A stretch of 64,000 nucleotides of DNA from a virus: IMG/VR virus record IMGVR_UViG_3300010397_000043, positions 23,529 through 87,528 of that record. One strand, 5' to 3'. Under the pieces are notes generated by a model. That model did not search any database. It saw only the letters and a list, made by a program, of their open reading frames with translations, and was not told where the DNA came from. Of the stretch, positions 5,088-61,005 are shown one piece after another (the stretch's first letter is position 1; each line of letters begins with the position of its first letter). The position numbers were made by a program, and so were the translations under genes.

Positions 5088-5102
5088 ATTACCACTGGTA
5101 AT
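5088..5102. promoter_or_regulatory. Palindrome site 1 (ATTACCACTGGTAAT)
   Basis: Exact ATTACC-ACT-GGTAAT copy in the gap between the DUF6527 gene and the protease gene. On its right lies TTGTAAC and then AGGGTTTACCCT, the same arrangement as at 32067. Likely operator controlling the head operon. Confidence 0.7.
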
Positions 5103-5120
5103 TTGTAACTAGGGTTTACC

Positions 5121-5480
5121 CTAATCTCGCCCAGGCATGTCGGGCAAGGGCACGGTCTGCCCTGCGAGGCCATGGGTGCAGTCGCCAAGGAACACGATGT
5201 TCCCGTCGATGATGTACGAGTGGCAGATACGCCGCACCTTCTGCTGAGGCCACGGGTTCTGTTCAAACTCTTTGTAGTTCTCGTAGGTAACTGGCGGCTC
5301 GTAGTTGTAGCTGTCCAGCAACAGGCTGGGCGTGAACGTTGGCTTTTCTTCGTTGCCGTTGAACGCCCAGGCTAGACGACCCTTTGTCCACACTGCATGG
5401 ATTTCGCGGCACCCCGGGCACCAGAACGTATACCCGTCGTTGGAGTCGTCCGGGCTGGCGAAGCGTTTCATGATCGGCAT
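5121..5480 (-). CDS. DUF6527-like protein in the packaging module
   Basis: 119 residues. The sequence has the order CPGC near the N-terminus, WAFNGNEEKPTFTPSLLL, CHSYIIDGNIVFLGDC, and THGLAGQTVPLP. This is the pattern I associate with the DUF6527 phage family, with Cys/His positions that could bind a metal. Lies 8 bases past the large terminase. Molecular function is not known to me. Confidence 0.7.
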   Translation of the reverse strand: MPIMKRFASPDDSNDGYTFWCPGCREIHAVWTKGRLAWAFNGNEEKPTFTPSLLLDSYNYEPPVTYENYKEFEQNPWPQQKVRRICHSYIIDGNIVFLGDCTHGLAGQTVPLPDMPGRD

Positions 5481-5488
5481 AGGTCCTC

Positions 5489-7090
5489 CTACAAAAAGAA
5501 CAGGCTCGATTCGGTGACCGGGGGCTTGCCCTCCTCCGGCTTCTCGTAGAAACCGCCCGTAGCCATCACAGCAGCGACCATGGGGTCGATACGGGCGCTC
5601 GACTTCGCCTTCTCGAGCTTGCGGTTCTTGGCTGGGTCGAGCGCGACGACCGCGTTAGCCGCCGCCATGTTGAGCAGAGGGTTGTCGCCGTGGGCGAGCT
5701 TTTCCTCCAGTAGCAGTGTCTCGAAAAACTCGACGCGCGGCGACATGTCACGAAAGCCCTGGCCCACCGAGTACCACTGGTCTTCGGGCAGGTCCTGCAG
5801 AAAGCCCTCGGCCGCAGCATCCATCTTGAATTGGCTGATGCGCCACCGGTCGAAGTGCAGGCCGGCAATGCGCATGCCAGTCAACTGCATCTTGAGGTAC
5901 TGGCAGACCATGGCGTAGCTGATGATGCGCCCAGGCAGCGCGATCAGGTGGCCTTGCTTCACCCAGGTCTCGTACGGAACCCGGTCTTGCTTGGCCCGCT
6001 CACGCAGGCCCACGATGGGCGTGAATGCAAAGCACTTGAGGTGCATGACGCCAGTGTCGGGGTGCCGGGCCGCAAGCACCGCCGCAGTCAAGTCCCGGTT
6101 CTGCGACAGGTCGAGTCCGATATGCACGTCCACGCCGCTTGTGAACAGGTCCTCGTCCACCTCGCCGGCTGCGGTCTTCCAGACGCTGGGGGCCACGAAC
6201 AGGGTCAACAGCGAAATGCGCTGGTTCAGGTACAGGTTGCGGAACGTCGGCTCGAAGGAGCTGATGCGCCTAGCCCGCTCGGCGGCTTCCTTGAACTCCT
6301 TCTCACTGCGGAACTTGCCCAGTGCGAAGTTCACGGTCTGCCACACCACCGGGTCGAAGATGTCGGAATCTTTCGCCGCTGCGTACAGCCGAAGAACCGT
6401 TTCCGGCGTCGGGTTCATCATCGCGTCGTCGATCAGCACACTCAGCAGGTCTGTATCACTTGCGGCCTGCGTGCTGATGATCAGCGATAGGGGTTCGTGC
6501 TGCGCGCCACCGGCGGTTTCCAGGGCGTCGTACAGTCCATCCACCGGGCCAATCACCTGCCCCAGTTCGTCGTGGATGGTCAAGGCCGGGGACAAGCCGT
6601 GAGCCGTGGTCGCATCCGCGCTCAGCGCCCGGTAGACCGTTCCCATCGCAAGGCCCTTGATGGTCTTGTACGAATCGGTGATCTGTACCAGATTGCCCAG
6701 GTCGTTGCGCAGCCGAAGTGACTTGGCGAGGTAGTTGAAAATCAGCGCCGCTTGGTCCCGACTGCGAGCCGCAGAGTACAACTGAGCGTTGGCCCTGGCT
6801 TCGGGTCCGATCAGGTGCCCCGCCAGAAGGGCCGCAATCAGGCCCGTTTTCCCATTCTTACGGGCAATCGACAGGATGCCCCGCCGAGTAATCAGGGCCC
6901 CGAGCGGGTCCACGTTGTCATATACAGCCTCAACGAAGTCGGTCTGCTCCGGTAGCAGCACCATCGGTTGCCCGACCAGCATGCCGTCTGGCACGAGGAT
7001 GTACTTCTCGATGAACCGCTGCATGCGCGAGGCACGCAGGGAACTGACCAGCGGCTTCTGCGCCGGTAGAGCAGCTTTGCGGCGAGGCAT
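5489..7090 (-). CDS. terL: Terminase large subunit
   Basis: 533 residues. The N-terminal ATPase has a Walker A-like RKNGKT (about 77-82) and a Walker B plus catalytic Glu in LTIHDELG (about 171-177). The C-terminal half has a nuclease-like segment starting GVDVHIGLDLSQNRDLTA with the first acidic residue of the RNase H-like site. It cuts concatemeric DNA and drives it through the portal. ATG at 7088-7090 overlaps the small-subunit stop (TGATG); a GTG one codon earlier is less likely. Confidence 0.92.
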   Translation of the reverse strand: MPRRKAALPAQKPLVSSLRASRMQRFIEKYILVPDGMLVGQPMVLLPEQTDFVEAVYDNVDPLGALITRRGILSIARKNGKTGLIAALLAGHLIGPEARANAQLYSAARSRDQAALIFNYLAKSLRLRNDLGNLVQITDSYKTIKGLAMGTVYRALSADATTAHGLSPALTIHDELGQVIGPVDGLYDALETAGGAQHEPLSLIISTQAASDTDLLSVLIDDAMMNPTPETVLRLYAAAKDSDIFDPVVWQTVNFALGKFRSEKEFKEAAERARRISSFEPTFRNLYLNQRISLLTLFVAPSVWKTAAGEVDEDLFTSGVDVHIGLDLSQNRDLTAAVLAARHPDTGVMHLKCFAFTPIVGLRERAKQDRVPYETWVKQGHLIALPGRIISYAMVCQYLKMQLTGMRIAGLHFDRWRISQFKMDAAAEGFLQDLPEDQWYSVGQGFRDMSPRVEFFETLLLEEKLAHGDNPLLNMAAANAVVALDPAKNRKLEKAKSSARIDPMVAAVMATGGFYEKPEEGKPPVTESSLFFL

Positions 7091-7632
7091 CACTGCACCA
7101 TGCGGGGCGGCAAGCCAGACGCACCGGCCAGCAGGCTATCGTCACCGTCGTCGCCGTCTTCGTTGATCTGTTTGGCGGCGCTCGTGGCGTTTTTCTTCTT
7201 TTGCTGCTGAGCCTTGTCGTTGTCAATGTCAAACCGGGAGGTCGGCTGCGCACGCAGCTTCGTGGACAGCGACATCAGCCGGGTCTCGGCGATGCTGCGC
7301 ACCACGATCTTGGGGTTCACGACCATGTCCCCCTTGGCGTTCTCGATGAGGTCGCCTTCTTCCTGAATCTGCTTGTCCAGCCGGTCGATATCTGCCGCCG
7401 CTCGGCAGTACAACTTCAAAAGCGGGTGGTCGCCCTTGTTGAAGTAGTCGTGCGGCTTGGAATTTACAAGCTCACACCAGTACTTCTTATGTGCTTCGGG
7501 CAGGCCCGGCGGGAACGGGTAGACAGGCACGTCGGGATTGGCCTCGATCTCAAGCGCGGCCTTCAATTCTGTGCCTTTACGATCCCCATAGGTCCCAGCC
7601 TTCTTGGCGGGCGTTTTCTTGGCGGCGGGCAT
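7090..7632 (-). CDS. terS: Terminase small subunit, P27-like
   Basis: 180 residues. The N-terminus is basic (AAKKTPAKKAG), then helical segments with HKKYWCELV, and NPKIVVRSIAETRLMSLSTKLRAQPTSR, the conserved end of the P27 (Terminase_4) family. It recognises the packaging site and recruits the large subunit. The tail is Lys/Asp-rich. Position directly before terL supports the call. Confidence 0.85.
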   Translation of the reverse strand: MPAAKKTPAKKAGTYGDRKGTELKAALEIEANPDVPVYPFPPGLPEAHKKYWCELVNSKPHDYFNKGDHPLLKLYCRAAADIDRLDKQIQEEGDLIENAKGDMVVNPKIVVRSIAETRLMSLSTKLRAQPTSRFDIDNDKAQQQKKKNATSAAKQINEDGDDGDDSLLAGASGLPPRMVQ

Positions 7633-7633
7633 G

Positions 7634-18021: not shown

Positions 18022-18036
18022 ATTACCAGTGGTAAT
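18022..18036. promoter_or_regulatory. Palindrome site 2 (ATTACCAGTGGTAAT)
   Basis: Exact arms, about 100 bases upstream of the first gene of the leftward cluster and about 20 bases upstream of its possible -35 element. Confidence 0.7.
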
Positions 18037-18923: not shown

Positions 18924-21026
18924 TTATGATTCGAGGGGTGGCGCATACCGGAACCGATTCGCCTTACCCCCTTCGTGCTTGAATCGTTCAATACGCAATT
19001 TGCCTTCGTCCACTGCCTGTTGCAAATGGACGCGCAAACCCATGGCGTTCGTGAGCCCAGCGTTCAAGATATCGGGGTGGTTTTGGATCGAACCCAGCAC
19101 TCCACTTGCACTCGCAATGGTCCAGTGCCCCTGTGCGTATTTTTCCAGCACCGTGCGGACCACCAGCGACTGCTGAAATTCCTGTTGCCCGGTGCCAGTC
19201 GGTGCCGCGCCGATCTCGTCACCCATCGCCAAAATGCCTGCATTAACATTCCACAACCAGCGCCCGCCATGCGACGTTGCACCGTAGTTATTCTTCTCCA
19301 CAATAAGTTCCGTATTGCCGCGTTCGTCGCGCTTTAGACTCCATCGAGCCCGAGCCGAATTGTGCCATTGAGTAGAACCGCTATACCCATCCCCCGCCTT
19401 GCTATCGTGACCCAGCAAAAGCACGGCAAGGTCGTGCTCAATCGCAAGTGCCGCCAGTCCCGAAACGAACTCGTCCACCATCGCCCGGGCGTTCTCGTTC
19501 GCCATGTAAAACTTGGACAGGTTGTCGAGGCATACGTAGGAGTAATTGCCCTCCTCGATGATCTCCTTCAAGCGGTCGAACTGCACGGTAAATTCGCCGT
19601 CTCGAAAGTCCTCGCCGATGTAGAGCGCCTTTCTCGTAATGTGGGCCAGTCCCTTCACGTCGAGCCACTTGCGCAGCCGCTTGATCGAGATTCCATAGTG
19701 CTGGCATATTCCCCAAAGTCGATGCGAAACTTCGTTCAGCTCGTCTTCGGCACCGATGTAGAGCACACGCCCCCTAGTAACCGGCGCTCCAAACCAGTCG
19801 AGCCCCATCGCCACCCGGGCGCAAAACGTCAGCGTGGAGTACGTTTTACCCGCACCGCCATTGGACGAAAACAGCACCACGGTCTTGCGGTACATCCAGT
19901 TCTTGACCAACGGTTCGGCCCCGGGCGGGCGCTCGGTCGCCTGCTCCATCATGTTCCAGTCAATGTCCTGCCACGGCAACGCTTCAACTTCGGCGTCCTC
20001 GTCGTCAACACCCGTCGAGCGCACTTTCGACCGCTTCAAGCCCCAAGCCTTCATGGTCTTGTCGGACACCTTGCAACCGTTGTCAAGGGCCTTGTAGACC
20101 AGCGACTTCATGGTTGTCAGGTCGTCCCGGCCATGATCGTGCGAAAAGCCGGCCTCCCAACGCTTCCGGTTATTCTCGTAGTCATACCCTTCCCGGGTCG
20201 CTGACCACTCATCGAGCACCTCCCACGCAGCCTCCGCCCCATCGAACTGCATGTGCAGCGCAGCCGCCGCGCGATACCATGTGCCCTCCCCCGGTGCGCC
20301 CCACTCGGCGGGCAGTCGCTTCAACACCGCACGGGCCTGTGCGAGCGTAAAGTTGGGCAGTCCCACCGCGTTCAACGACACGAGCCCTTCCACGGGCTTG
20401 CCCCCTGCCGTCGATGCCTTTCCACTACCGACCGAGCCCATGGCCTCGGTCAACTCGCGCTTGATGCCAAACGGCATGCGGCGCACCTTGCCCACGTTGT
20501 CGAGCAGGTCCTTGATCGCGTTGCCCGTGAACGTGGTGTACGCCGCGCCGCAGTACACCTCTACCCGCTCGCCATTCGAGATATGGAAGTTGCGCTTTTG
20601 TCCCGGGATCAGCGCCTCGCGGTACACCGCGCGCAGGCCACGCCCCGACGGTGACCGCTCGGCGTACACGCCCGAGTCCACAATGTCGTTGGCGAATTCG
20701 CTCAGCTCGCCGTTCTCGTCGATGCAGTTGTCCAGGTCGATGATTGTAAGGTTTTGCTCGGGCAGCACGGCCAGCCCGACGCCATCAAACTTGCGCTTGC
20801 GGGCGTAGGCCAGCGCGGCGTCAAAGGGGGCAAGCTGTTCAACATCCTTTTCCGACCCCAGCACGCCGTACCGCTTTCGCCCGTTGACGTAGTACGGCAC
20901 CTTGAGTTGCTTTTTGGCGGGGTCGGGATTGTCCTCGTAGCGCCACACGACCCAGTGATCGAGTTCGCGCAGCAGTGCAGGGATGTTCTCTTCGTTAACC
21001 TGGGTAGTGGCGGTTTGCTTCGACAT
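18924..21026 (-). CDS. Primase/RecA-fold helicase fusion
   Basis: 700 residues. The N-terminal domain looks like a phage prim-pol/archaeo-eukaryotic primase: PYYVNGRKRYGV, FDGVGLAVLP, an acidic motif TIIDLDNC (95-101), and AERSPSGRGLRAVY. The C-terminal domain is a RepA-like ATPase with Walker A NGGAGKT (about 389-395), YSYVCLDNL as Walker B near 480, and LAVLLLGHDSKAGDGYSGST. It should prime and unwind DNA for the polymerase at 38.5 kb. ATG at 21024-21026 is preceded by palindrome site 3. It is the only replication gene on the minus strand. Confidence 0.85.
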   Translation of the reverse strand: MSKQTATTQVNEENIPALLRELDHWVVWRYEDNPDPAKKQLKVPYYVNGRKRYGVLGSEKDVEQLAPFDAALAYARKRKFDGVGLAVLPEQNLTIIDLDNCIDENGELSEFANDIVDSGVYAERSPSGRGLRAVYREALIPGQKRNFHISNGERVEVYCGAAYTTFTGNAIKDLLDNVGKVRRMPFGIKRELTEAMGSVGSGKASTAGGKPVEGLVSLNAVGLPNFTLAQARAVLKRLPAEWGAPGEGTWYRAAAALHMQFDGAEAAWEVLDEWSATREGYDYENNRKRWEAGFSHDHGRDDLTTMKSLVYKALDNGCKVSDKTMKAWGLKRSKVRSTGVDDEDAEVEALPWQDIDWNMMEQATERPPGAEPLVKNWMYRKTVVLFSSNGGAGKTYSTLTFCARVAMGLDWFGAPVTRGRVLYIGAEDELNEVSHRLWGICQHYGISIKRLRKWLDVKGLAHITRKALYIGEDFRDGEFTVQFDRLKEIIEEGNYSYVCLDNLSKFYMANENARAMVDEFVSGLAALAIEHDLAVLLLGHDSKAGDGYSGSTQWHNSARARWSLKRDERGNTELIVEKNNYGATSHGGRWLWNVNAGILAMGDEIGAAPTGTGQQEFQQSLVVRTVLEKYAQGHWTIASASGVLGSIQNHPDILNAGLTNAMGLRVHLQQAVDEGKLRIERFKHEGGKANRFRYAPPLES

Positions 21027-21041: not shown

Positions 21042-21056
21042 ATTACCGGTGGTAAT
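21042..21056. promoter_or_regulatory. Palindrome site 3 (ATTACCGGTGGTAAT)
   Basis: Exact arms, 16 bases upstream of the primase start codon, where a bound protein would block transcription or ribosome access. Confidence 0.7.
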
Positions 21057-21403: not shown

Positions 21404-21799
21404 ATGGATATCGAGCGGCTTCAAGAACTGCGGCGCGTCATCGTCGAAACGCCCGACGAGCGTGTTGACCTCAATGGCTGGGCGCGGTCGTGCGGCACCA
21501 TCGCCTGCGTGCTCGGCTGGGCCTGCAAACACCCGCCGTTCGTGGCCGAGGGACTGCACCTGTTCGAGGACGAGGGCGCGTACACGCCTTGCTTCGGCAA
21601 TTTCATCAACTACGAAGCGGGCGGGGAGTTCTTCCGCCTGTCGTACCCCGACGCCGAATTCCTGTTTGGGCCGCGTTCGTGGGGCGACGCCACGGGCCGC
21701 GCCGACATCACCGACAAGCAATTGGCCCTGCAGCGCATCGATGAACTGCTGGGCACGCGCCGCAGCCCGTACACCGATTGCTTTCCCTGCGACGACTGA
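21404..21799 (+). CDS. Tandem paralogue 1 (CGTIACxLGWAC family)
   Basis: 131 residues, CTGGAGG before ATG. Family plan seen in all eight genes: an N-terminal ERL..LR.VI..TPDE..D helix, a central CGTIACVLGWAC with invariant Cys and GW, then G..F....G..FF.L....A..LF and a C-terminal D.DKQ.AL.R.D.LL helix. The C..C spacing could bind metal. Resembles phage hypothetical proteins with a CGTxACxxGW motif; function unknown. This copy is the most divergent (KHPPFVAEGL instead of xVPEFQAAGL) and ends in a CFPCDD tail. Confidence 0.75.
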   Translation: MDIERLQELRRVIVETPDERVDLNGWARSCGTIACVLGWACKHPPFVAEGLHLFEDEGAYTPCFGNFINYEAGGEFFRLSYPDAEFLFGPRSWGDATGRADITDKQLALQRIDELLGTRRSPYTDCFPCDD

Positions 21800-21804
21800 A
21801 CCCC

Positions 21805-21819
21805 ATTACCACTGGTAAT
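21805..21819. promoter_or_regulatory. Palindrome site 4 (ATTACCACTGGTAAT)
   Basis: Exact copy, six bases after the stop of paralogue 1, within the context GAACCCC-ATTACC shared with sites 5 and 6. Confidence 0.75.
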
Positions 21820-21839
21820 TCACAATCTGGAGCACAACC

Positions 21840-22274
21840 ATGCACCTCGACCGACTCAAGACCCTGCGCGACCTGATGGCGGCGACGCCCGACGACAAGA
21901 TCGACATGAACTACTGGCGGCGCGAACCCGGCGCCATCTTCGACCCCAACACTCTCAATGCACCCACGTGCGGCACCGTGGCCTGCATGCTGGGCTGGGC
22001 GTGCATGAACCCTGAGTTCCAGACCTTGGGCCTGCACTTTGAGCACGACAGCGTTTCGTTGTACCCGGAGTACAACGGCAGGTCTTCTGCCGGGGCCGGT
22101 GCTGAGTTCTTCGATCTAGAACCCAAGATCAGTCGTCTGCTGTTCGACGCGGCTTCTCGTCAGGAACTGGCGGAGCGCGGCTCGCACAAGGCTGTCGCAC
22201 TGGCCCGGCTCGACGAACTGCTCGAAACGGGCACGCTCCACGACCCCGACTACTACGATCCCAGTGGCGACTGA
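21840..22274 (+). CDS. Tandem paralogue 2
   Basis: 144 residues. HLDRLKTLRDLMAATPDD start, TCGTVACMLGWACMNPEF centre, GAEFFDLEPKISRLLF, then KAVALARLDELLETG. It has an insertion before the CGT motif (FDPNTLNAP) and lacks the D.TDKQ segment of other copies. Confidence 0.75.
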   Translation: MHLDRLKTLRDLMAATPDDKIDMNYWRREPGAIFDPNTLNAPTCGTVACMLGWACMNPEFQTLGLHFEHDSVSLYPEYNGRSSAGAGAEFFDLEPKISRLLFDAASRQELAERGSHKAVALARLDELLETGTLHDPDYYDPSGD

Positions 22275-22279
22275 ACCCC

Positions 22280-22294
22280 ATTACCACTGGTAAT
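22280..22294. promoter_or_regulatory. Palindrome site 5 (ATTACCACTGGTAAT)
   Basis: Same placement as site 4: directly after the stop of paralogue 2 and before the start of paralogue 3. Confidence 0.75.
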
Positions 22295-22319
22295 CGCACT
22301 CCTAAACCACGAGGCACCC

Positions 22320-22757
22320 ATGAACATCGAACGACTCAAGACCCTGCGCGACGTGCTGGCCGCGACGCCCGACAAGATGGTCAACCTGGACGGCTGGCGA
22401 TACGACGAAGGGGAAATCTTTTGCGCAACTGGCGACCCCTCCAAGCCCGCGTGCGGCACCATCGCCTGCGTGCTCGGCTGGGCCTGCATGGTGCCTGAAT
22501 TTCAGGCAGCAGGACTCAAGCTGATCATCCACGACGGCGAGTTCATCCCGACGTACCAGAAGTACTACCTTCGCTTTCGTGCCGGCGAGGAGTTCTTTGA
22601 ACTGGAGACTGACACCGCACGCAAGCTGTTCCGCGCCTCGGCGACGTGCGTCGAGCCAAAGCTCCACAAGCAGATCGCTCTGGCCCGGCTCGACTGGCTG
22701 ATCGAGCACGGCGATTTCGACGGGTACAACGAACTCAACCTGGAGCTGCAATCATGA
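22320..22757 (+). CDS. Tandem paralogue 3
   Basis: 145 residues. NIERLKTLRDVLAATPDK, CGTIACVLGWACMVPEFQAA, GEEFFELETDTARKLF, KQIALARLDWLIEHG. Its stop overlaps the start of paralogue 4 (ATGA), so the two are translationally coupled. Confidence 0.75.
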   Translation: MNIERLKTLRDVLAATPDKMVNLDGWRYDEGEIFCATGDPSKPACGTIACVLGWACMVPEFQAAGLKLIIHDGEFIPTYQKYYLRFRAGEEFFELETDTARKLFRASATCVEPKLHKQIALARLDWLIEHGDFDGYNELNLELQS

Positions 22758-23191
22758 ACATCGAACGACTGCAAACCCTGCGCGACGTGATCGCAGCCAC
22801 ACCCGACGAAGCCGTGGAGCTCGACCGCTGGCAGCGAGAAAGCCCTATGTGCGGCACCATCGCCTGCGTTCTCGGCTGGGCCTGCGCGGTGCCCGAGTTC
22901 AAGGCCGAGGGCCTGCACTTGGCCCCCACCAGCACCTTTGACAAAGCGCCGTGGTACGACGGGGCGTGCGAGTACCTCGCGGGCGCCAAGTTCTTCGACA
23001 TGGAGTACTACGACGCGAGGAAGCTGTTCTCGTACCGTGGCGTGCTGTGGGACGATGACGGCGAGGGGTACGGGCATGCCGACGACCGAACGGACAAGCA
23101 AGTCGCGCTTGACCGGCTTGACCACATGCTCAAGCACGGCACCATGGCCGGGTGGGATCAAGATTCTGAATGCTACGTGCCCCAGGAGTAA
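22754..23191 (+). CDS. Tandem paralogue 4
   Basis: 145 residues. NIERLQTLRDVIAATPDEAV, MCGTIACVLGWACAVPEFKA, AKFFDMEYYDARKLF, DDRTDKQVALDRLDHMLKHG. A typical member. Confidence 0.75.
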   Translation: MNIERLQTLRDVIAATPDEAVELDRWQRESPMCGTIACVLGWACAVPEFKAEGLHLAPTSTFDKAPWYDGACEYLAGAKFFDMEYYDARKLFSYRGVLWDDDGEGYGHADDRTDKQVALDRLDHMLKHGTMAGWDQDSECYVPQE

Positions 23192-23194
23192 ACC

Positions 23195-23668
23195 ATGCAC
23201 ATCGAACGACTCAAGACTCTGCGCGACGTGATTGCAGCGACGCCCGACGAAGCCGTCAACATGGGCACGTGGCGGTGCGACCCTGGCGGCTGGGCTAAGG
23301 ACCCTGCCAAGCCCGAGTGCGGGACCATCGCCTGCATGCTCGGCTGGGCCTGCATGGTGCCTGAGTTTCAGGCAGCGGGGCTTAAGTTCCTGGCGTTCGC
23401 GAACGTGCCAGAAGGCTTTCGGCACCTGGACTTTATTCCGTCGTATGAAGATGATATTTCCTACAGTGCGGGCGAAGCGTTCTTCGAGCTTGACCCTGGC
23501 GTCGGGTACGCACTGTTCAAGACCGCTGAAGCCGGGCTCAACCAAAAGGCCGTCGCCTTGGGCCGGCTCGACTACCTGTTGAAGGAAGGACACCTCGGCG
23601 GGTACTTCGACCCGCAGCCGCCGGCTGACCCCGACGATGACCAGACCTGGATCGACGACTGGAGCTGA
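23195..23668 (+). CDS. Tandem paralogue 5
   Basis: 157 residues, the longest copy. HIERLKTLRDVIAATPDEAV, CGTIACMLGWACMVPEFQAA, GEAFFELDPGVGYALF, KAVALGRLDYLLKEG. It has an acidic C-terminal extension (ADPDDDQTWIDDWS). Confidence 0.75.
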   Translation: MHIERLKTLRDVIAATPDEAVNMGTWRCDPGGWAKDPAKPECGTIACMLGWACMVPEFQAAGLKFLAFANVPEGFRHLDFIPSYEDDISYSAGEAFFELDPGVGYALFKTAEAGLNQKAVALGRLDYLLKEGHLGGYFDPQPPADPDDDQTWIDDWS

Positions 23669-23702
23669 ACTCGCCAACCCAACGGACGACTTGGAGCCGA
23701 CC

Positions 23703-24104
23703 ATGAACATCGAACGACTCAAGACCCTGCGCGACGTGATCGCCACTACGCCAAACGAGAACATCGACCTATCGTATTTCATCAAACCGCACGTCTGTGG
23801 CACGATCTGCTGCACGCTCGGCTGGGCCTGCGAAGTGCCTGAATTTCAGGCAGAAGGTTTGCGCATGGGCGTGGACCCTGAGTATACAGTCCTATCCCCT
23901 GTGTACGAGGGCCACGTCGGCTTTGAAGCTGCTGTTGCCTTTTTCGAGTTGAGCGGCCTGCACGACGCGTATCGCCTGTTCGACGCTGCCGCGCCGCACA
24001 CCGGCAATAACCACAAGGCGCTCGCCCTGGCGCGGCTCGATTACGCCATCGCGCACGGCTCGATGAACGGGTACACGAACTCCGAAGACTGGGCTGTGGA
24101 GTAA
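23703..24104 (+). CDS. Tandem paralogue 6
   Basis: 133 residues. NIERLKTLRDVIATTPNENI, VCGTICCTLGWACEVPEFQA (A to C change inside the motif, adding a third Cys), AVAFFELSGLHDAYRLF, KALALARLDYAIAHG. Confidence 0.75.
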   Translation: MNIERLKTLRDVIATTPNENIDLSYFIKPHVCGTICCTLGWACEVPEFQAEGLRMGVDPEYTVLSPVYEGHVGFEAAVAFFELSGLHDAYRLFDAAAPHTGNNHKALALARLDYAIAHGSMNGYTNSEDWAVE

Positions 24105-24108
24105 TACC

Positions 24109-24543
24109 ATGAATACCGAACGACTCAAGACCCTGCGCGACGTGATTGCCGCAACACCAGATGACTACGTGGACCTCTCGTGGTGGCAGCAGTCCGGCGA
24201 CTGCGGCACCATCGCCTGCATGCTCGGCTGGGCCTGCGAAGTGCCTGAATTTCAGGCAGCGGGTTTGCGCATGGAGCACTACCCGGGCTACGGCGACGCA
24301 TTCCCTACGCTCGACCAGAAATTCGGCTACGAGGCCGGCGCGGCGTTCTTTGGGCTGGACTACGCAGACTCGGCGATGCTGTTTTGCGGGCGGGGCTGCA
24401 GGTTCAGCACCGAGAATGACGACCGCACGGACAAACAAGTCGCGCTCGACCGGCTCGACCATTTGCTCACGTATGGCAACTTCACTGCCATGCGGTTCGC
24501 CAGTCGTCCCACCACCAAGCCCCGTTACTGGAGCCAGCCATGA
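24109..24543 (+). CDS. Tandem paralogue 7
   Basis: 144 residues. NTERLKTLRDVIAATPDDYV, DCGTIACMLGWACEVPEFQA, GAAFFGLDYADSAMLF, DDRTDKQVALDRLDHLLTYG. Stop overlaps the start of paralogue 8. Confidence 0.75.
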   Translation: MNTERLKTLRDVIAATPDDYVDLSWWQQSGDCGTIACMLGWACEVPEFQAAGLRMEHYPGYGDAFPTLDQKFGYEAGAAFFGLDYADSAMLFCGRGCRFSTENDDRTDKQVALDRLDHLLTYGNFTAMRFASRPTTKPRYWSQP

Positions 24544-24965
24544 ACATCGAACGACTCAAGACCCTGCGCGACGTCATCGCAGCGACACCCGACGAGGTGG
24601 TGGACCTGGACCGCTGGCAGTTGACCAAAGACTGCGGCACCATCGCCTGCATTCTTGGCTGGGCCTGCGAAGTGCCTGAGTTTCAGGCAGCAGGGCTCAA
24701 GCTGGTCCCCCACCAAGGCAACCCAGCGCGTTGGGTGCCCGAGTATGACCTGATGTACCGTGAGTTCCGGGCGGGTGCCAAGTTTTTCGGCCTGTCGTCG
24801 GACACTGCACGTCTGCTATTCGGCCAGCGGGCGGCGGACCTCGATACCGAAAACAAAAGGACTGGCGACGTGCGCACAGATCGGGAAGTTGCATTGGACC
24901 GGCTCGACCATTTGATCAAGCACGGCAACTTCAACGCGCTGTTGCCGGAGTGGCTGCACGAGTAA
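24540..24965 (+). CDS. Tandem paralogue 8
   Basis: 141 residues. NIERLKTLRDVIAATPDEVV, DCGTIACILGWACEVPEFQA, GAKFFGLSSDTARLLF, VRTDREVALDRLDHLIKHG. Closest to paralogue 7 over the central motif. End of the array. Confidence 0.75.
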   Translation: MNIERLKTLRDVIAATPDEVVDLDRWQLTKDCGTIACILGWACEVPEFQAAGLKLVPHQGNPARWVPEYDLMYREFRAGAKFFGLSSDTARLLFGQRAADLDTENKRTGDVRTDREVALDRLDHLIKHGNFNALLPEWLHE

Positions 24966-26577: not shown

Positions 26578-26592
26578 ATTACCACCGGTAAT
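26578..26592. promoter_or_regulatory. Palindrome site 6 (ATTACCACCGGTAAT)
   Basis: Exact arms, directly after a stop codon, 21 bases before the next start; same GAACCCC left flank as sites 4 and 5. Confidence 0.75.
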
Positions 26593-29763: not shown

Positions 29764-29954
29764 CGCAGCTCAACGCCATGCGCTTGGCTATGCTCCGACA
29801 GACGGGTTACACCATCTCGCCGCACTGCCTACTTCAACTGATCGTACTGATCGAAGCCGATCTACACGTGGCCTACATCACAGGCTTGGAGCACAACGAT
29901 GCAACGCGACCCGAAGACCCTGTACCTCCAGTCGTACCTGGTCCTGGACTATGA
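29721..29954 (+). CDS. 77-aa hypothetical protein
   Basis: CAGGAG before ATG at 29721. Contains LNAMRLAMLRQTGYTISPHC and LIVLIEADLHVAYITGLEHN, helical. Overlaps both neighbouring genes by about 50 bases. Confidence 0.5.
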   Translation: MQYPHPASEEPKSIAQLNAMRLAMLRQTGYTISPHCLLQLIVLIEADLHVAYITGLEHNDATRPEDPVPPVVPGPGL

Positions 29955-32066: not shown

Positions 32067-32081
32067 ATTACCACTGGTAAT
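32067..32081. promoter_or_regulatory. Palindrome site 7 (ATTACCACTGGTAAT)
   Basis: Exact copy upstream of the ParB-like gene, followed by TTGTAAC...GGGTTTACCC...GTTACAA, a 7-bp inverted repeat, and then TGTATACT near 32126, a plausible -10 without a clear -35. It shares its right flank with site 1. Confidence 0.75.
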
Positions 32082-32211
32082 TGTAACAGTGGGTTTACCC
32101 TGCCCAATTCACGTTACAAAGGGTGTATACTGGCGGGGCCCAACGGGTTTGGATTGGGTAGTACGGGCCGACCCTTGGGTGGACGAACCACACACTTTAG
32201 GAGCACTCAAC

Positions 32212-33402
32212 ATGTCAACGAAGCAAACAACCAAGAAGGCTGCCAAGGCCCAAGAGACATCAGGCAGGTTGGAGCGACACCCCCTTTCGGAGCGCTTCGC
32301 CCTGCCGACGACCGACGAAGAACGATTGGCGCTCGCGACCGACATGGCGACGAACGGCCAGCATCAGGAAATTCTGCTGTACGAGGGCAAGGTCCTCGAC
32401 GGGTGGGAACGCTACATGGGGTGCATGCAAAAGGGCATCACCCCCAAGTTCAAGGAATACACCGGCATTGACCCCGCTGCCACGGCATTCGGGGTCAATG
32501 TCATTCGACGGAAGCTTTCGACCGTCCAGAAGGCGTACTTCGGCGCCGTCTACTACAAGTACGTGCTGGAAACGCAGGGCCCGAAGGTGACGCAGGCCCA
32601 GATCGCCAAGATGGTGTGCGTGGGTCTCACGAAGCTGAACCTCATGTCGCAACTGCTGCAGTCGCGGCACCCGGCTGCAGCCGGCCATATCGAGACGCTG
32701 GGCACCGACAGCGAGGTCACGAATGCGCAGTGGCTGGCGATGTTGGTCGAGTGCGGCATTCAGGAGGAAAAGCCCAAGGGCAAGCCCAGCAACTTGCAGA
32801 TCGGCGGTGTGGACGACATGCTCATCGACGACGCCGATGCCGAAGCCGACGAGCACGACCACGATGCCGCTGTGGACGACCTGACCGGCGGCACCATCGA
32901 CGACCTGCTCGACGAAGACGACGACATGCCCCTGCCCAAGCGTGCGGGCGGCGGGGGTGGTGAAGCTGGCGGCAGCGACAACGTGGTGGAAATTTCGTCG
33001 CGTGGCGGTCGCATCGGCCACAACCACCGCAGCACCGAGACCCCGGCCAGTGCCTGTGCCAAGAACTTCAAGGGGCTGGCCGAACCCGAACGCCTCGACT
33101 TCGTGAAGTTCGCGTGGGCCACCCTGCGCCCCGCCATCGAGCGCGCTATGCACGAAGGCCGCATCGACTGGCCCAACCTGGGCGAACTCGTGACCGAGGC
33201 CACCAGTGACCCCGGCAAGGCCGCGCTCGCCGATGCTGCCTTGGCGCTCGCCGGCAAGCCTGCCAAGGGCCCCGCCAAGCCCACCGCTGCCCCCGCCAAG
33301 CCCGCGAAGGCCCCCGCCAAGGGCAAGCCCCCTGCCAAGCCCGCCAAGGCCCCCACCACGAAGGCCCCCGCCAAGCCCGCCAGGGCCCGCAAAGCCGCCT
33401 AG
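32212..33402 (+). CDS. ParB-like protein with histone-H1-like tail
   Basis: 396 residues, TAGGAG before ATG. N-terminal ParB/sulfiredoxin-like pattern: HPLSERFALPTTDEERLALA and LYEGKVLDGWERYMGCMQKG. Next a HTH-like stretch (VTQAQIAKMVCVGLTKLNLM), an acidic linker, a helical domain (NFKGLAEPERLDFVKFAWAT) and an AKPAKAPAK-type basic tail. Family knowledge suggests DNA binding or segregation or transcription roles. Site 7 in its own leader makes it my preferred candidate to bind the palindrome. Confidence 0.68.
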   Translation: MSTKQTTKKAAKAQETSGRLERHPLSERFALPTTDEERLALATDMATNGQHQEILLYEGKVLDGWERYMGCMQKGITPKFKEYTGIDPAATAFGVNVIRRKLSTVQKAYFGAVYYKYVLETQGPKVTQAQIAKMVCVGLTKLNLMSQLLQSRHPAAAGHIETLGTDSEVTNAQWLAMLVECGIQEEKPKGKPSNLQIGGVDDMLIDDADAEADEHDHDAAVDDLTGGTIDDLLDEDDDMPLPKRAGGGGGEAGGSDNVVEISSRGGRIGHNHRSTETPASACAKNFKGLAEPERLDFVKFAWATLRPAIERAMHEGRIDWPNLGELVTEATSDPGKAALADAALALAGKPAKGPAKPTAAPAKPAKAPAKGKPPAKPAKAPTTKAPAKPARARKAA

Positions 33403-37304: not shown

Positions 37305-37763
37305 ATGGCAAAGAAGAATGCCCCTGCCGCCGAAAACAACGTGGACGATCTGCTCGCCGGTGGCGATGCCGAAGCGGCCCCCGCCGCGAAGCCCAAGGCC
37401 AAGAAGGCTGTGAAGGTCGAAGGCACCGACGAGGTCAAGCCCAAGGCGAAGGCCAAGCCCGAAGCCGCCGCCAAGCCGGCGAAGAAGGCCAGCAAGCCCA
37501 AGGCCGAGCCGGAAGCGAAGCCCGCCGCCAAGCCCAAGGCAAAGGCCAAGGGTGGCAAGCCCCGTGGCGAGCGTGCCGAGTCGCGCGTCGAGGACATCAC
37601 GGCGGCGCTGCTGAAGGTCAAGAAGTCCACGAGCTATGAGGACCTCGCGGCCAAGGGTGGTTTCGACATCCGCGCTGTGCGTCGCACCGCCCGCAAGCTG
37701 CGTGACGACGGGCAGATCGGCCTCGAGAAGGAAGGCACCAAGGTCTACGTGACCGCTGCCTGA
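37305..37763 (+). CDS. Histone-H1-like tail fused to a winged-helix domain
   Basis: 152 residues, TGGAGA before ATG. Residues 15-85 are Lys/Ala/Pro-rich repeats (AKPKAKAKPEAAAKPAKKAS). The C-terminal 60 residues, SRVEDITAALLKVKKSTSYE then DLAAKGGFDIRAVRRTARKL, form a winged helix. Reads as a nucleoid-associated or regulatory DNA-binding protein. Confidence 0.65.
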   Translation: MAKKNAPAAENNVDDLLAGGDAEAAPAAKPKAKKAVKVEGTDEVKPKAKAKPEAAAKPAKKASKPKAEPEAKPAAKPKAKAKGGKPRGERAESRVEDITAALLKVKKSTSYEDLAAKGGFDIRAVRRTARKLRDDGQIGLEKEGTKVYVTAA

Positions 37764-38130: not shown

Positions 38131-38210
38131 AACGGCCACATAGCTCAATCTGGTAGAGCGTCGGTCTCCAAAACCGAAGGTTGGGGGTTCAAGTCCCTCT
38201 GTGGTCGCCA
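38131..38210 (+). tRNA. tRNA-Trp (anticodon CCA)
   Basis: Acceptor GGCCACA pairs with TGTGGTC (one G-U), TA, D-stem GCTC/GAGC, anticodon arm TCGGT-CTCCAAA-ACCGA, T-arm with TTCAAGT loop, discriminator G and an encoded CCA. There are four bases rather than one between the D-stem and anticodon stem (GTCG), giving 80 nt, which is odd and may be a 3-base duplication. Confidence 0.85.
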
Positions 38211-42409: not shown

Positions 42410-42424
42410 ATTACCGGTGGTAAT
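42410..42424. promoter_or_regulatory. Palindrome site 8 (ATTACCGGTGGTAAT)
   Basis: Exact arms, in the untranslated leader about 25 bases past the expected transcription start and 25 bases before the next start codon. Confidence 0.72.
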
Positions 42425-45954: not shown

Positions 45955-46265
45955 GCACCACACTCCAGACGCTACCAAACAACCAGCAGGAAATGCTGCG
46001 CCTATGTGCGCTGATTGAAGACAAGGCCAAAGCCGAGGCAAGGCGGCGCAACGGCGCTTCCGACTGGTATGGCGACGGCAATACGCCCGAGAGCGTTGCG
46101 CCTGCAGAGATGGCGCTCGTGAAGCTGGTGCGCGCTACGATGACGAACACGTTGTTCCAATACGAGGCATGCGAGAAGCACAGGCACTTGCCAATCACGC
46201 TTCGGGTAACCTGCGTGCCGCCCATAAACGTGGTGTGTCCGCACTGTCTGGAGGGAAAGCCATGA
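45951..46265 (+). CDS. 104-aa hypothetical protein
   Basis: Helical start (EMLRLCALIEDKAKAEARRR), then CEKH and CPHC near the C-terminus, which could form one zinc site. Overlaps both neighbours by four bases. Confidence 0.58.
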   Translation: MSTTLQTLPNNQQEMLRLCALIEDKAKAEARRRNGASDWYGDGNTPESVAPAEMALVKLVRATMTNTLFQYEACEKHRHLPITLRVTCVPPINVVCPHCLEGKP

Positions 46266-47179
46266 GCACGCTCGACCTGGGGCCCTTCGTGCCCGAGCGC
46301 ATCGACGAGTGGGCGTACTGGTGCAAGGCCCGCGAGCAAATCCGGCGTCGCCGCGAAGCCGGCAAGCCTCCGCCCTGGCACAGCGACCCAGTGATGGCAA
46401 CGACCCGCTGGTGTAACTGCAAACGCATGAACGATAAGGTGAGCGTTTGGCTCATGCAGAACTGGTACACGCCCGGGTCCATGAACCGACGCGACGCGCT
46501 GATCGCAGCGTTGATGGCGCGCATGATCAACAGAACGGACACGCTGGCGTACATGAACAGCGGCGACCCTTACGCTAGGTGGGACTACGATAAGTTCTAC
46601 AAGCGCATGTATGAGTTGAAGAACGAAGGCTTCGTTGTGTTCACGAACGCATACATCATCAACGGCGCGAGCGGCGGGCCCAAGATTGACCAAGTGCTCG
46701 GGGCCATCGACAAGGCAGCGAAGATGATGGGCAACGACCGCAACGCATCGCGCTTCGTGGACCCCGACAGCCTGCAAATTACCGCTGGTAATCTGCACGT
46801 GCTTCCCGGGGTCGGCAGCTTCATCAGTGGGCAAGTCGTGGCGGACCTGCGCTGGGTGATTGATACCGACCGCTGGGCCGACCGCATGACCTGGGCCCCG
46901 CCTGGGCCGGGTTCGTCGCGGGGCATGAAGTACCTGCTGGGCCAAGTGAGCGCCGAGGGCACCGTCGGGCGTGGAAAGGACATGGGCGAGCGCGAGTTTC
47001 TGAAGCACCTGCGCTTGCTTGTCCGCATCGCCGAGCGGCACAATGTGGTGGGGCCGATTTTTGCCGAGCGGCAACTCGAAGCGCACGACATTCAAAATAC
47101 GTTGTGCGAGCTGAGTAAATACATTCGGGTGAGCTATGGCCTGGGTCGGCCCAAGAACTTCTACCATGCCAAGGAATAG
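46262..47179 (+). CDS. Hypermodified-thymine pathway protein (aGPT-pyrophosphorylase / 5-hmdU kinase helical family)
   Basis: 305 residues. The N-terminal pattern ERIDEWAYWCKAREQIRRRR then EAGKPPPWHSDPVMATTRWC NCKR matches the F..F...R..IR.RR..G.P.PWT.DP.....RFCN..R signature I associate with this phage family (Pfam names HMUDK_hel / aGPT-Pplase). Later NAYIINGASGGPKIDQVLGA and PGVGSFISGQVVADLRW continue the all-helical, glycosylase-like domain. These proteins act on 5-hydroxymethyluracil in DNA. It contains palindrome site 9 in its coding sequence. Confidence 0.72.
   Translation: MSTLDLGPFVPERIDEWAYWCKAREQIRRRREAGKPPPWHSDPVMATTRWCNCKRMNDKVSVWLMQNWYTPGSMNRRDALIAALMARMINRTDTLAYMNSGDPYARWDYDKFYKRMYELKNEGFVVFTNAYIINGASGGPKIDQVLGAIDKAAKMMGNDRNASRFVDPDSLQITAGNLHVLPGVGSFISGQVVADLRWVIDTDRWADRMTWAPPGPGSSRGMKYLLGQVSAEGTVGRGKDMGEREFLKHLRLLVRIAERHNVVGPIFAERQLEAHDIQNTLCELSKYIRVSYGLGRPKNFYHAKE
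46778..46792. promoter_or_regulatory. Palindrome site 9 (ATTACCGCTGGTAAT), intragenic
   Basis: Exact arms within codons for LQITAGNLHV. The only copy inside a gene; it could act as a roadblock or partition-type site rather than a classical operator. Confidence 0.6.
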
Positions 47180-48501: not shown

Positions 48502-48762
48502 ATGGCGACCAAAGAAGACGTGCGCCACGCACTCACGCTCGTTGCCGACAGTCGCCAGCGATTCATCGCGGCTGTCGGGTACGCGATCAGTAAAGCCAAG
48601 ACCGAATTCGAGGCAGAGACCGGGCTTGTGATTACTGACGTGGACGTTGTCATCAGCTCGTACCAGTATGTTAGGGATTACACAGCCAGCTCAATCCTGT
48701 CGAACGTCGCCATTCGTACCAACATCGAAAGGGCCAGTCATGGCACGCCACAAAGCACCTGA
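48502..48762 (+). CDS. 86-aa hypothetical protein
   Basis: TKEDVRHALTLVADSRQRFI, then FEAETGLVITDVDVVISSYQ. Helix-helix-strand. The 3' end overlaps the next gene by 23 bases. Confidence 0.55.
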   Translation: MATKEDVRHALTLVADSRQRFIAAVGYAISKAKTEFEAETGLVITDVDVVISSYQYVRDYTASSILSNVAIRTNIERASHGTPQST

Positions 48763-49570
48763 CCCCGATACGCTCGACTCGTGGCAGAAGTTCACGGCCA
48801 ATCTGTTTCCGAGCTACGACGCGGACCCGGGGTACTACGCCATTCAACTGGCCGAAATAACCGAGGCGCAGAAGCGCCGACTGGCGGTGGCGTGGACTTC
48901 GTTTTACCAGCTAGGTCACGCGGCCAAGGCCAGCGAGTATGAAGGGGCGCAGTTCTACCACTACCTGCATTCCGTGTACCCCACGGCGCAGCGGGGCAGC
49001 GAACGACGGCACTTCCGTGGCGAGCAGGGGTTGCGGGCGCTGACAGAATGGCAGGCCAAGTTTAATCATCCGGAAAAGATGGCGTGGTACATCTGTGAGA
49101 ACTCGCACTCGTACTCCGATGTACGCAAGAAGACAGACACCATCCGCTCATACGGCGACTATTTCGCATGGAAGTGGTGCGACTTGGCCGAGGTGCTGTA
49201 CGGTACGACTATCGACTTCACGGGCGCTGAGGACAGGTCGCCCAAGGTGCCACAGCAAGGCGCGAAGCTGATCGCGCCCGATTTCACGGTGGCACAGACA
49301 TACGACATGATCGCCAAGCGTGCCCGAGCAAAGGGCGTGCGCTCGCCGGCCAATCTTGGTCGCGAGTTTGGCATTGGCGAGGCGGAGACGGTGTGCTGCG
49401 TCTACAAGCAATACCGGTCCGGCTCATATGTGTACGGTTCGCGGCTGGCAAAGGCAGTCGCGCGCCTGGAAAGCGTGCCCAGCAAGACCGGGCGCAAGCT
49501 GACCGAAGCACTTCTAGGAGTATCACCGTGGACGAGAGACGAGCTAAAGGGAATACTCGCAAGCCTTTAA
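48740..49570 (+). CDS. Second hypermodified-thymine pathway protein (ADDT / aGPT-pyrophosphorylase clade 2-like)
   Basis: 276 residues. LAVAWTSFYQLGHAAKASEY followed by EGAQFYHYLHSVYPTAQRGS and ERRHFRGEQGLRALTEWQAK: the tA..SEY.G..F...L....P....ERR.FRG pattern resembles the amino acid:DNA transferase clade of this superfamily. The C-terminal half has HTH-like helices. It would add the side group to activated hydroxymethyl-thymine. The assignment is by motif memory only. Confidence 0.58.
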   Translation: MARHKAPDPDTLDSWQKFTANLFPSYDADPGYYAIQLAEITEAQKRRLAVAWTSFYQLGHAAKASEYEGAQFYHYLHSVYPTAQRGSERRHFRGEQGLRALTEWQAKFNHPEKMAWYICENSHSYSDVRKKTDTIRSYGDYFAWKWCDLAEVLYGTTIDFTGAEDRSPKVPQQGAKLIAPDFTVAQTYDMIAKRARAKGVRSPANLGREFGIGEAETVCCVYKQYRSGSYVYGSRLAKAVARLESVPSKTGRKLTEALLGVSPWTRDELKGILASL

Positions 49571-50277: not shown

Positions 50278-50325
50278 ATTACCGCTGGTAATTTGTAACC
50301 GGCGCAGGCCATTACCGCTGGTAAT
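50278..50325. promoter_or_regulatory. Palindrome sites 10 and 11 in tandem (ATTACCGCTGGTAAT)
   Basis: Two identical exact copies at 50278-50292 and 50311-50325, 33 bases apart (about three helical turns), so dimers could bind the same DNA face. TTGTAAC follows the first copy as at site 1. They lie just upstream of the HNH gene. Confidence 0.78.
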
Positions 50326-51571: not shown

Positions 51572-52633
51572 ATGCACACGATCTATGCAAAAGACGTGGA
51601 CAATGCCCTGGCCCAAGGCATCAACCTGCTATACAACGTCGGCACCACGCAGGACACCCGCAACGGCCCCGCCGTTGTTTGCCCCACCCCCGTCGCCACC
51701 ATTTACCTGAGCCCGCGCCATCGTGTGCTGCTCAACCCGGTACGCGACGCCAACCCGTTCTTCCACCTGATGGAGTCCTTCTGGATCATCGCAGGCCGGT
51801 CGGACGTTGCCTTCCTCTCGCAGTTCGTCAAGCGCATGGCCGAGTTCAGCGACGACGGCAAAGTGTTCCACGCACCTTACGGGCATCGCCTGCGCTACGC
51901 TCAGGGGTTCGATCAGCTCAGCTCGGTCGTTGCCCACCTGTCACGCGACAAGCACAACCGGCAGGCTGTGCTGCAAATCTGGGATGCCACGATGGACCTC
52001 GACGCCCAGACGAAGGACAAGCCCTGCAACGACCTGATCTTCTGCCGCACGGATCGCGGCGTGCTCGACATCACGGTCTGCAACCGCAGCAACGACATCA
52101 TCTGGGGTGCCTACGGGGCCAACGCCGTGCAGTTCAGCGTGCTGCAAGAGTACCTCGCCGCGCGCATCGGCATTCCCATGGGCGAGTACACCCAGTTCAG
52201 CTTCAACTATCACGCCTACGAATCGAATGCCTACTGGAAGCAGGCCCGCGAGGTGATCGAGCACGACCCGAAAGCCCACTGGCGCAACGGCTATTCCTAC
52301 CAGGGTGTGCAGCCGACCCCGCTGTTCACGCCCCACACGGTCGATGCTGTGGAAGCCGACATCATGGTCATGCTGCAAGTCTTCGACGCTTACACCGGCA
52401 TCACGCCTTTCGGCTGGATCGACCGGCTGCTCAGCGTGCAATGGCACAGCGATCTGTTCGACCGGTTCGTCGTGCGCTACCTCGCGGCATACGCGGAATA
52501 CAAGCACGGCGATCTGCAGGCTGCGATGGGCCTGCTGCGCACGATCAACGACGCGACCGGCTTCGAGTGTGACTGGGCCAAGGCCGCGACCATCTGGATT
52601 GCCAACCGGGAGACGACTCGTGCAGCGGCTTAA
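51572..52633 (+). CDS. Thymidylate-synthase-family enzyme, probably dUMP hydroxymethylase
   Basis: 353 residues. NPFFHLMESFWIIAGRSDVA, RQAVLQIWDATMDLD, catalytic Cys152 in DKPCNDLIF, CNRSNDIIWGAYGANAVQFS (phosphate-binding Arg172-Ser173 and Asn184 in the position that selects uracil over cytosine) and FNYHAYESN. Canonical enzymes make dTMP; the phage base-modification branch makes hydroxymethyl-dUMP. The context of kinase and pyrophosphorylase-like genes favours hydroxymethylation. Own regulated promoter upstream. Confidence 0.82.
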   Translation: MHTIYAKDVDNALAQGINLLYNVGTTQDTRNGPAVVCPTPVATIYLSPRHRVLLNPVRDANPFFHLMESFWIIAGRSDVAFLSQFVKRMAEFSDDGKVFHAPYGHRLRYAQGFDQLSSVVAHLSRDKHNRQAVLQIWDATMDLDAQTKDKPCNDLIFCRTDRGVLDITVCNRSNDIIWGAYGANAVQFSVLQEYLAARIGIPMGEYTQFSFNYHAYESNAYWKQAREVIEHDPKAHWRNGYSYQGVQPTPLFTPHTVDAVEADIMVMLQVFDAYTGITPFGWIDRLLSVQWHSDLFDRFVVRYLAAYAEYKHGDLQAAMGLLRTINDATGFECDWAKAATIWIANRETTRAAA

Positions 52634-56382: not shown

Positions 56383-56458
56383 GCCCCTGTAGCTCAATTG
56401 GCAGAGCAGCGGATTTCAAATCCGAGGGTTGCAGGTTCGAGACCTGTCGGGGGCGCCA
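56383..56458 (+). tRNA. tRNA with UCA anticodon (UGA decoding, Trp- or suppressor-type)
   Basis: Complete 76-nt cloverleaf: acceptor GCCCCTG with CGGGGGC, D-stem GCTC/GAGC, anticodon arm GCGGA-TTTCAAA-TCCGA, T-loop TTCGAGA, discriminator G, encoded CCA. Bases 34-36 are TCA (56416-56418), which reads UGA. The G discriminator fits tryptophanyl-tRNA synthetase. Position 33 is the normal U. The G27-A43 pair is a mismatch, as in the interrupted tRNA at 38.2 kb. Confidence 0.88.
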
Positions 56459-59645: not shown

Positions 59646-59649
59646 CGTC

Positions 59650-60120: not shown

Positions 60121-60124
60121 CACC

Positions 60125-60403: not shown

Positions 60404-60414
60404 GGAGTAACACC

Positions 60415-60588
60415 ATGGTTGCACCCGGCCACATTGACATGCTCGAAAGGCGCATCGCGACACTGGAGAGGGACCTCGGTCGCCTTCTGAGCATCGTGGA
60501 ACTACTGGCTATGCAAGTCCAGAAGATCGTCGCGCCACTAAAGCCGAAGGAGGACGAGCCGAAGGAAAGGGAGCCGGAGGACGGGTAG
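60415..60588 (+). CDS. 57-aa coiled-coil protein
   Basis: MLERRIATLERDLGRLLSIV, then a Lys/Glu/Pro tail. Same size class as the coiled-coil gene at 59457. Confidence 0.55.
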   Translation: MVAPGHIDMLERRIATLERDLGRLLSIVELLAMQVQKIVAPLKPKEDEPKEREPEDG

Positions 60589-60598
60589 TAACACCTAG

Positions 60599-60627
60599 TT
60601 GCACTCGGGCCGTCATAGGAGTATGCT
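60599..60627 (+). promoter_or_regulatory. Promoter before the 94-aa gene
   Basis: TTGCAC, 17 bases, TATGCT, followed by GACATACG and the next ATG 28 bases later. Confidence 0.5.
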
Positions 60628-60655
60628 GACATACGCCGACCGAAAGGGGGAGCGT

Positions 60656-60940
60656 ATGTCATGCCGAACGAAAGTGAAGTTCACACATAGCGGGTGGTAC
60701 GGACTGTGCCCGATTCTCATTGGCGACGTTAGTTCAGCGAGCCCAGCCGTACTGGAACGCTACCCCTTCACCATGTGGCTACTCGACATCTCGGAAATGG
60801 TGTTCTGCATGATGGAGTTCGTGCTGTCGCTTACCGACCCCGACCACGCCCCGCTGGCGACCATTACCATCACGAGCGAGTTGAAGACCCCGATCACGAT
60901 GCAGTTCGAGTACGACGAGGAGGACGAGCTTACCCGTTGA
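60656..60940 (+). CDS. 94-aa conserved-type phage protein
   Basis: SGWYGLCPILIGDVSSASPA, MWLLDISEMVFCMMEFVLSL, then FEYDEEDELTR. The W..L.PI.IGD...P......E..F pattern recurs in phage hypothetical proteins. GGGGGAG before ATG. Confidence 0.6.
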   Translation: MSCRTKVKFTHSGWYGLCPILIGDVSSASPAVLERYPFTMWLLDISEMVFCMMEFVLSLTDPDHAPLATITITSELKTPITMQFEYDEEDELTR

Positions 60941-60961
60941 GCTTACTGCGCCCCACACCCC

Positions 60962-61005
60962 AAGGCCCCGTTACCAGTGGTAATCTACTGTGTAACGGGG
61001 CCTTT
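60962..61005 (+). terminator. Terminator with palindrome site 12 in its arm and loop
   Basis: AAGGCCCCGTTAC pairs with GTAACGGGGCCTT (13 bp), then T-rich GCTTT. The loop contains the right part of a GTTACC-AGT-GGTAAT palindrome (60970-60984), so a bound protein would compete with the hairpin. Confidence 0.85.
60970..60984. promoter_or_regulatory. Palindrome site 12 (GTTACCAGTGGTAAT)
   Basis: One mismatch from the consensus arms (first base G). Confidence 0.6.

Follow-up and report, generated by a model that had tools for sequence, protein, structure and literature searches.

Dispersed palindromes in a phage genome as probable binding sites of a phage-encoded orphan ParB

A 64,000-nucleotide stretch of phage DNA (the window; bases 23529-87528 of the 87,528-bp IMG/VR record IMGVR_UViG_3300010397_000043, here G000) carries twelve copies of a 15-bp palindrome, ATTACC-N3-GGTAAT, dispersed among its genes. 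The palindromes occur far above chance, are conserved in relatives, shift with the lineage of a ParB/Noc-type protein and are under selection as DNA. From sequence comparison, they very probably serve as nucleation sites, bound by the orphan ParB that the phage itself encodes at 32212-33402. The explanation that we favour as a whole, an orphan-ParB regulon resembling that of KorB or Noc and not a partition system, is likely; for the KorB/Noc-like regulatory role of ParB at the dispersed sites, taken by itself, the case is evenly balanced.

Palindromes in the window and in the whole record

An earlier sequence-only reading of the window had listed twelve copies, and all its coordinates proved correct: eleven of the palindromes are exact and the twelfth (60970) has one mismatch. 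The R-S-Y centre that it described holds for every palindrome within the window. The whole record has 13 exact palindromes and one near-exact; the two copies outside the window, at 6039 and 13953, have the centres GGG and AAC. The 10-base core TTACC-N3-GGTAA is present in 14 copies against 0.01 expected under an order-3 Markov null, and it was the top-ranking spaced palindrome of G000 in an unbiased scan of all 5-base arms. No copy of the reversed control pattern was found in G000.

Palindromes and the features discussed with them are listed below in window coordinates.

5088..5102, palindrome ATTACC-ACT-GGTAAT, flanked by the terminase and prohead-protease-like genes; centre-to-centre distance to GGGTTTACCC, 21.5 bp
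5112..5121, second motif (TA)GGGTTTACCC(TA)
18022..18036, palindrome ATTACC-AGT-GGTAAT
18924..21026, minus strand, primase/helicase-like replication gene (AAA_25 and PriCT_2)
21042..21056, palindrome ATTACC-GGT-GGTAAT, on the upstream side of the minus-strand primase-helicase gene, 15 bp from its start at 21026
21805..21819, palindrome ATTACC-ACT-GGTAAT, start codon at 21840, 20 bp on
22280..22294, palindrome ATTACC-ACT-GGTAAT, start codon at 22320, 25 bp on
26578..26592, palindrome ATTACC-ACC-GGTAAT, start codon at 26614, 21 bp on
32067..32081, palindrome ATTACC-ACT-GGTAAT, parB upstream region; counterpart at 60995 in the relative G003
32091..32100, second motif GGGTTTACCC, parB upstream region; 21.5-bp centre distance, identical in G003
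32212..33402, plus strand, orphan ParB/Noc-type protein of 396 aa, predicted palindrome binder
42410..42424, palindrome ATTACC-GGT-GGTAAT, upstream of an SNF2-type helicase; syntenic G003 site at 49944
46778..46792, palindrome ATTACC-GCT-GGTAAT, inside a 5-hydroxymethyldeoxyuridine (5-hmdU) kinase-like gene
50278..50292, palindrome ATTACC-GCT-GGTAAT, paired with the next copy
50311..50325, palindrome ATTACC-GCT-GGTAAT, second of the pair, offset 33 bp; start codon at 50352, 26 bp on
60970..60984, near-exact palindrome GTTACC-AGT-GGTAAT

The majority of the window palindromes fall between a stop codon and the following ribosome site, and at six of them a start codon lies 15-26 bp past the end of the palindrome. 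Eleven of the twelve had been called intergenic. This count stands at about 10-11 and is approximate, because the gene ends come from a home-made gene caller: the site at 46778 is intragenic, and that at 21042 is intergenic only with a gene start at 21026, not 21110. The palindromes at 50278-50325, 33 bp apart, form the sole close pair in the genome. Those at 21805 and 22280 separate the first three members of a run of several small paralogues (MNIERLKTLRDVIAATPD...) without an assigned function (21404-24965).

ParB as the predicted binder and its co-occurrence with the sites

One palindrome begins 145 bp upstream of the start codon of the gene at 32212-33402, and the best phage matches of its product include genes annotated parB. 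As a single sequence the protein had no Pfam or NCBIfam match, and a search of the PDB with a two-sequence alignment gave no match; thirteen sequences were required. The profile of the thirteen-member family matched Noc structures at 1.5e-5 (HMMER) across the nucleoside triphosphate (NTP) fold and the helix-turn-helix (HTH), and TIGR00180 matches 11 of the 13 members. In an AlphaFold2 model residues ~21-190 are confident, the overall mean predicted local distance difference test score (pLDDT) being 60.5 because of low-confidence linkers; a fold search with this model returned Spo0J, ParB, Noc and KorB as the top structures. The alignment gives the family layout as ParB NTP fold, HTH, acidic linker and C-terminal helices, the last being conserved beyond the linker and modelled with low confidence.

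In a comparison of shared genes, ParB alone among the shared proteins had a domain recognisable as one for sequence-specific DNA binding. The sequence-only reading had named the protein at 32212 as a candidate binder, and the ParB fold and the co-occurrence with sites described below support it as the likely one; we strongly infer that ParB binds the palindromes. For a second candidate of that reading, near 30044 (a winged-helix-like protein, 29951-30475), no homologue could be detected in the site-bearing relatives tested, the closest among them, and this protein is therefore not the binder. Another winged-helix protein (37305-37763) was considered and set aside: blast gave a homologue in G003 only, and no window match for the podovirus gene that occupies the same slot.

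Initial IMG/VR scans, run with ParB alone, with a two-ParB alignment or with polA, retrieved nothing besides G003 (IMGVR_UViG_3300009085_000030, 61 kb). Its ParB ortholog is 55% identical, and it has seven TTACC-N3-GGTAA sites, again its leading palindrome; the site upstream of parB is at the same place as 32067 in the window. Three sites were found in a 7.2-kb relative, G001, and 0 or 1 in each of eight relatives recovered by terminase alone. The 5-hmdU-kinase gene holds a site in the window, G003 and G001. In both relatives it lies at a codon other than that of the window, which suggests that selection here favours having a site in the region and not a particular peptide.

Two podoviruses, ctfPj964 (MW202557) and Rhodoferax phage P26218 (KP792623; ParB AKA60307.1), have a ParB that is 33% identical to that of the window. 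Their genomes are otherwise different, sharing little with it beyond ParB and the replication/modification module. GATACC-N3-GGTATC is among the top palindromes of both, with 4 copies each at corresponding places. The half-site thus follows the ParB lineage, ATTACC in the clade of the window and G003 and GMTACC in the podoviruses (GMTACC-RNY-GGTAKC). An IMG/VR scan with a four-ParB alignment yielded 57 loci. When whole records were compared, 2-7 copies of KMTACC-N3-GGTAKM were present in 12 of the 14 records of the ParB clade and in 0 of the 16 with other ParB-like proteins (descriptive Fisher p, 1e-6), and the reversed control gave 0 throughout. Distinct TACC-N3-GGTA sites numbered 58 in 327 kb of the ParB clade against 0 in 288 kb, and 54 of the 58 have an R-N-Y centre. 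In an independent approach from a nearby exonuclease gene, 72 loci were examined: at least 2 sites were found at 9 of 11 ParB-clade-positive and at 1 of 61 ParB-negative loci (descriptive Fisher p, 6e-9). The one ParB-negative locus that reaches this number, L151, belongs to a contig fragment in which the exonuclease lies close to the end. The enrichment in relatives that the sequence-only reading had proposed as a test was seen in G003, in G001 and in the podovirus ParB clade. At Acidovorax phage AP1 and myovirus ctsTn925, whose ParBs are more distant, no dominant palindrome of the same type was observed.

Intragenic sites of the podoviruses point to what is being selected. The site in the exonuclease gene encodes R-Y-x-R-Y-R through AGA (2%) or CGA (7%), CGG (9%) and TAT (14%), codons whose joint frequency is ~9e-4, and lineages that use different arginine codons arrive at identical DNA. 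The site in parB encodes DTDG within an otherwise variable acidic linker and is written GAT-ACC-GAY-GGT. Two exceptions are known, L073 with D changed to A (GCT), at a position where the degeneracy of the half-site permits A or C, and L097 with E (GAA). Since rare codons are kept at these intragenic sites, selection acts on the DNA. One variant, G012, has the ParB recognition helix SNTVLSMVLK against SNEV[VIL][TN]L[VL][LI][KR] elsewhere. There the linker DTDG is lost; the exonuclease peptide KYRRYR is kept and its site is abolished by codon choice. Only two degenerate sites, flanking RepA, are retained, so the sites of G012 are degraded and not lost.

Placement of the sites and the possible roles of ParB

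In five genomes of the podovirus clade, sites recur ~80-110 bp ahead of RepA, within parB and within the exonuclease gene. Most of the five have further sites in the helicase/ADDT gap, where the early and late regions meet, close to the start of the terminase gene and ahead of the coat operon. The equivalents in the window are 21042, upstream of the primase/helicase gene, and 32067 at parB. Both clades thus share with a KorB-type regulon dispersed palindromic sites near the promoters of replication and maintenance genes, here upstream of primase/RepA and at parB.

A second motif, GGGTTTACCC, has 3 copies in G000 (5112-5121 and 32091-32100 of the window, and 6024 of G000), each less than 30 bp from a palindrome. 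The centre distance between motif and palindrome is exactly 21.5 bp, or two helical turns, in three places, at 5088 and 32067 of the window and at parB of G003; the nine bases separating the two differ among these places. G003 also has a tandem GGGTTTACCC pair, at 34534 and 34549, away from any palindrome.

In the mechanism that we favour, a ParB dimer would read two inverted half-sites, ATTACC here and GMTACC in the podoviruses, by its HTH across the R-N-Y centre. With about fourteen sites over the genome, ParB could then control transcription and replication globally. Its targets would be its own promoter, that of the replicative primase/helicase, the borders of transcription units, and genes in the modules for DNA hypermodification and the capsid. 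Control of parB, of replication and of operon borders would be exerted through nucleation and perhaps spreading, and loading of ParB as a nucleotide-dependent clamp, or its spreading, may be involved. The proposal of the sequence-only reading that the sites are dispersed operators agrees with this, the predicted binder being phage-encoded and the sites conserved in relatives.

Several points weigh against this explanation. The NTP motifs are non-canonical (GW[E/H]RY for GERR, and VN..RRKL for EN..R) at conserved positions, which makes behaviour as a cytidine triphosphate (CTP) clamp uncertain; according to PMC12704722, nucleotide specificity is not reliably predictable from sequence. The HTH of the window and G003 aligns poorly with that of the podoviruses, so that a residue-by-base reading is blurred. 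The loci behind the Fisher values are related by descent, and these values overstate independence. A weaker GGGACC-RNY-GGTCCC family with the same ACC-RNY-GGT core occurs in marine phages that have no detectable ParB, and a number of the sites, in late regions or within genes, have no obvious promoter position.

The same ParB could bind the palindromes for a physical purpose, spreading to compact, organise or anchor the replicating DNA or to shield it from host defence, with little direct control of genes. The sites do extend over early, late and intragenic regions, ~1 per 6 kb in most members, with gaps that are not distinguishable from random placement, and the ParB/Noc fold is known to spread on and organise DNA (PMC8429893). 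Their conserved placement upstream of RepA and parB, the 15-26 bp to start codons and the second motif at a fixed distance upstream of parB speak instead for gene control, and we consider a purely physical role unlikely. For partition in the sense of N15 SopB, with centromere-like sites of a ParABS system in a plasmid-prophage, one could cite the palindromic form of the sites and the central HTH of the ParB-type protein. However, ParA (PF13614) was not found in G000 and ten relatives, while 14/14 control genomes were positive; most of the searched records may be fragments, and the two GenBank genomes are described as complete. The ParA-binding motif [LFI]G[KR]G[LFI], as defined in PMC12704722, is absent from the aligned ParBs on inspection. 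The 14 sites are dispersed over 87.5 kb, without clustering at one or few loci, and the relatives include the podovirus P26218, described as lytic (PMC4657236). Since neither ParA nor its binding motif was found, partition, which the sequence-only reading had offered, is unsupported and highly improbable.

Its other suggestion, that a phage repressor bound between genes stops transcription elongation as at the stoperators of mycobacteriophage L5, would suit the many sites in short gaps between a stop codon and a ribosome site and their dispersal over the genome. L5 stoperators are asymmetric 13-mers, oriented with transcription and bound by a monomer (PMC9283540), whereas the phage sites are symmetric. 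The candidate binder is a ParB and not an immunity repressor, the relative P26218 is lytic, and the integrase PF00589 was not found in G000, a record that may be incomplete. This alternative was not supported and we regard it as improbable. Each copy might also act in leader RNAs as a 6-bp hairpin, being an inverted repeat with a 3-base loop that often lies directly ahead of a ribosome site. Because the outer pairs are freely mismatched, such an element is very doubtful: 26 of the 58 podovirus sites mix GA and GC half-sites, most G003 sites read ATTACC...GGTAAC, and the half-sites vary independently while the centre is held to R-N-Y. Sites also lie within genes and in late regions.

Related systems, other features and implications

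Among known systems, KorB of plasmid RK2 represses from ~16-bp silencer sites, the OB operators, near or far from the target promoters (PMC11790492). The phage protein shares with it the ParB fold and the central HTH, and the second short motif at a fixed distance from the palindrome recalls the paired operators of KorA (OA) and KorB. It differs in being phage-encoded, in its 15-mer operator (an ATTACC or GMTACC palindrome) and in its divergent NTP motifs; identity between the phage ParB model and the KorB structure is only ~16%, and no KorA homologue was identified. Noc and its binding sites (NBS; PMC7383237, PMC8429893) gave the best sequence match among solved structures. Noc too is an orphan ParB paralogue with several palindromic sites and a specificity tuned by residues of the recognition region, but it is a chromosomal protein of Firmicutes that acts at the membrane to block cell division. 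Phage-encoded ParB-CTPase folds without a ParA partner are described in PMC12704722; this survey centres on fold, fusions and nucleotide binding, and keyword look-ups in it gave no mention of palindromes. L5 likewise has many, often intergenic, sites for a phage-encoded protein, there a monomeric immunity repressor. In open-licence papers no report of the present phage sites was found.

G000 has head genes for an HK97-type terminase and major head protein, and a replication module. Its genes for thymidine hypermodification are as follows.

46262-47179, 5-hmdU kinase-like
48740-49570, amino acid:DNA transferase
51572-52633, thymidylate-synthase-like hydroxymethylase

ARAGORN placed tRNA-Trp(cca) at 38134-38210 of the window and a 76-nt tRNA with anticodon tca, labelled SeC, at 56383-56458. 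The latter may be a suppressor, since TGA remains the stop codon in many called genes. The DNA polymerase I gene (38490-41414) has a long insert at residues ~330-620, and matches to PhoH-like and ribonucleotide reductase family profiles suggest that it is an intein.

Other dispersed palindromes were noted in further phages. G040 (IMGVR_UViG_3300046096_000342), with a more distant ParB-like protein, has 11 copies of TGCAC-N3-GTGCA in 42 kb, 8 of which extend to GTGCAC-N3-GTGCAC (for example at 11637, 19404 and 30060). In G042-G045, phage records from the exonuclease scan in which no ParB was found, there are 10 copies of GGACC-RNY-GGTCC, every centre being R-N-Y. Seven of them, from G043 and G045, were examined; all fall in long open frames, and their places correspond between the two phages.

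These phages seem to have turned a ParB-like protein, for which no ParA was found, into a genome-wide regulator. A broader view can be put forward tentatively: a ParA-less ParB family, acting as nucleotide-switched clamps at dispersed palindromes, might be a global organiser of transcription and replication that cooperates with a second regulator binding GGGTTTACCC, and that travels with the replication and thymidine-hypermodification module among otherwise unrelated phages. If a ParB-clamp regulon of this kind is true, we know of no earlier example in a phage.

ParB-fold proteins are common in phages, yet few have a known function. In the present case sequence alone allows a phage ParB family to be paired with its probable DNA sites, and a specificity series is at hand in ATTACC, GMTACC and the recognition-helix variant with degraded sites. 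The isolated lytic Rhodoferax phage P26218 makes it testable whether a ParB switch can serve gene control or genome organisation as opposed to segregation.

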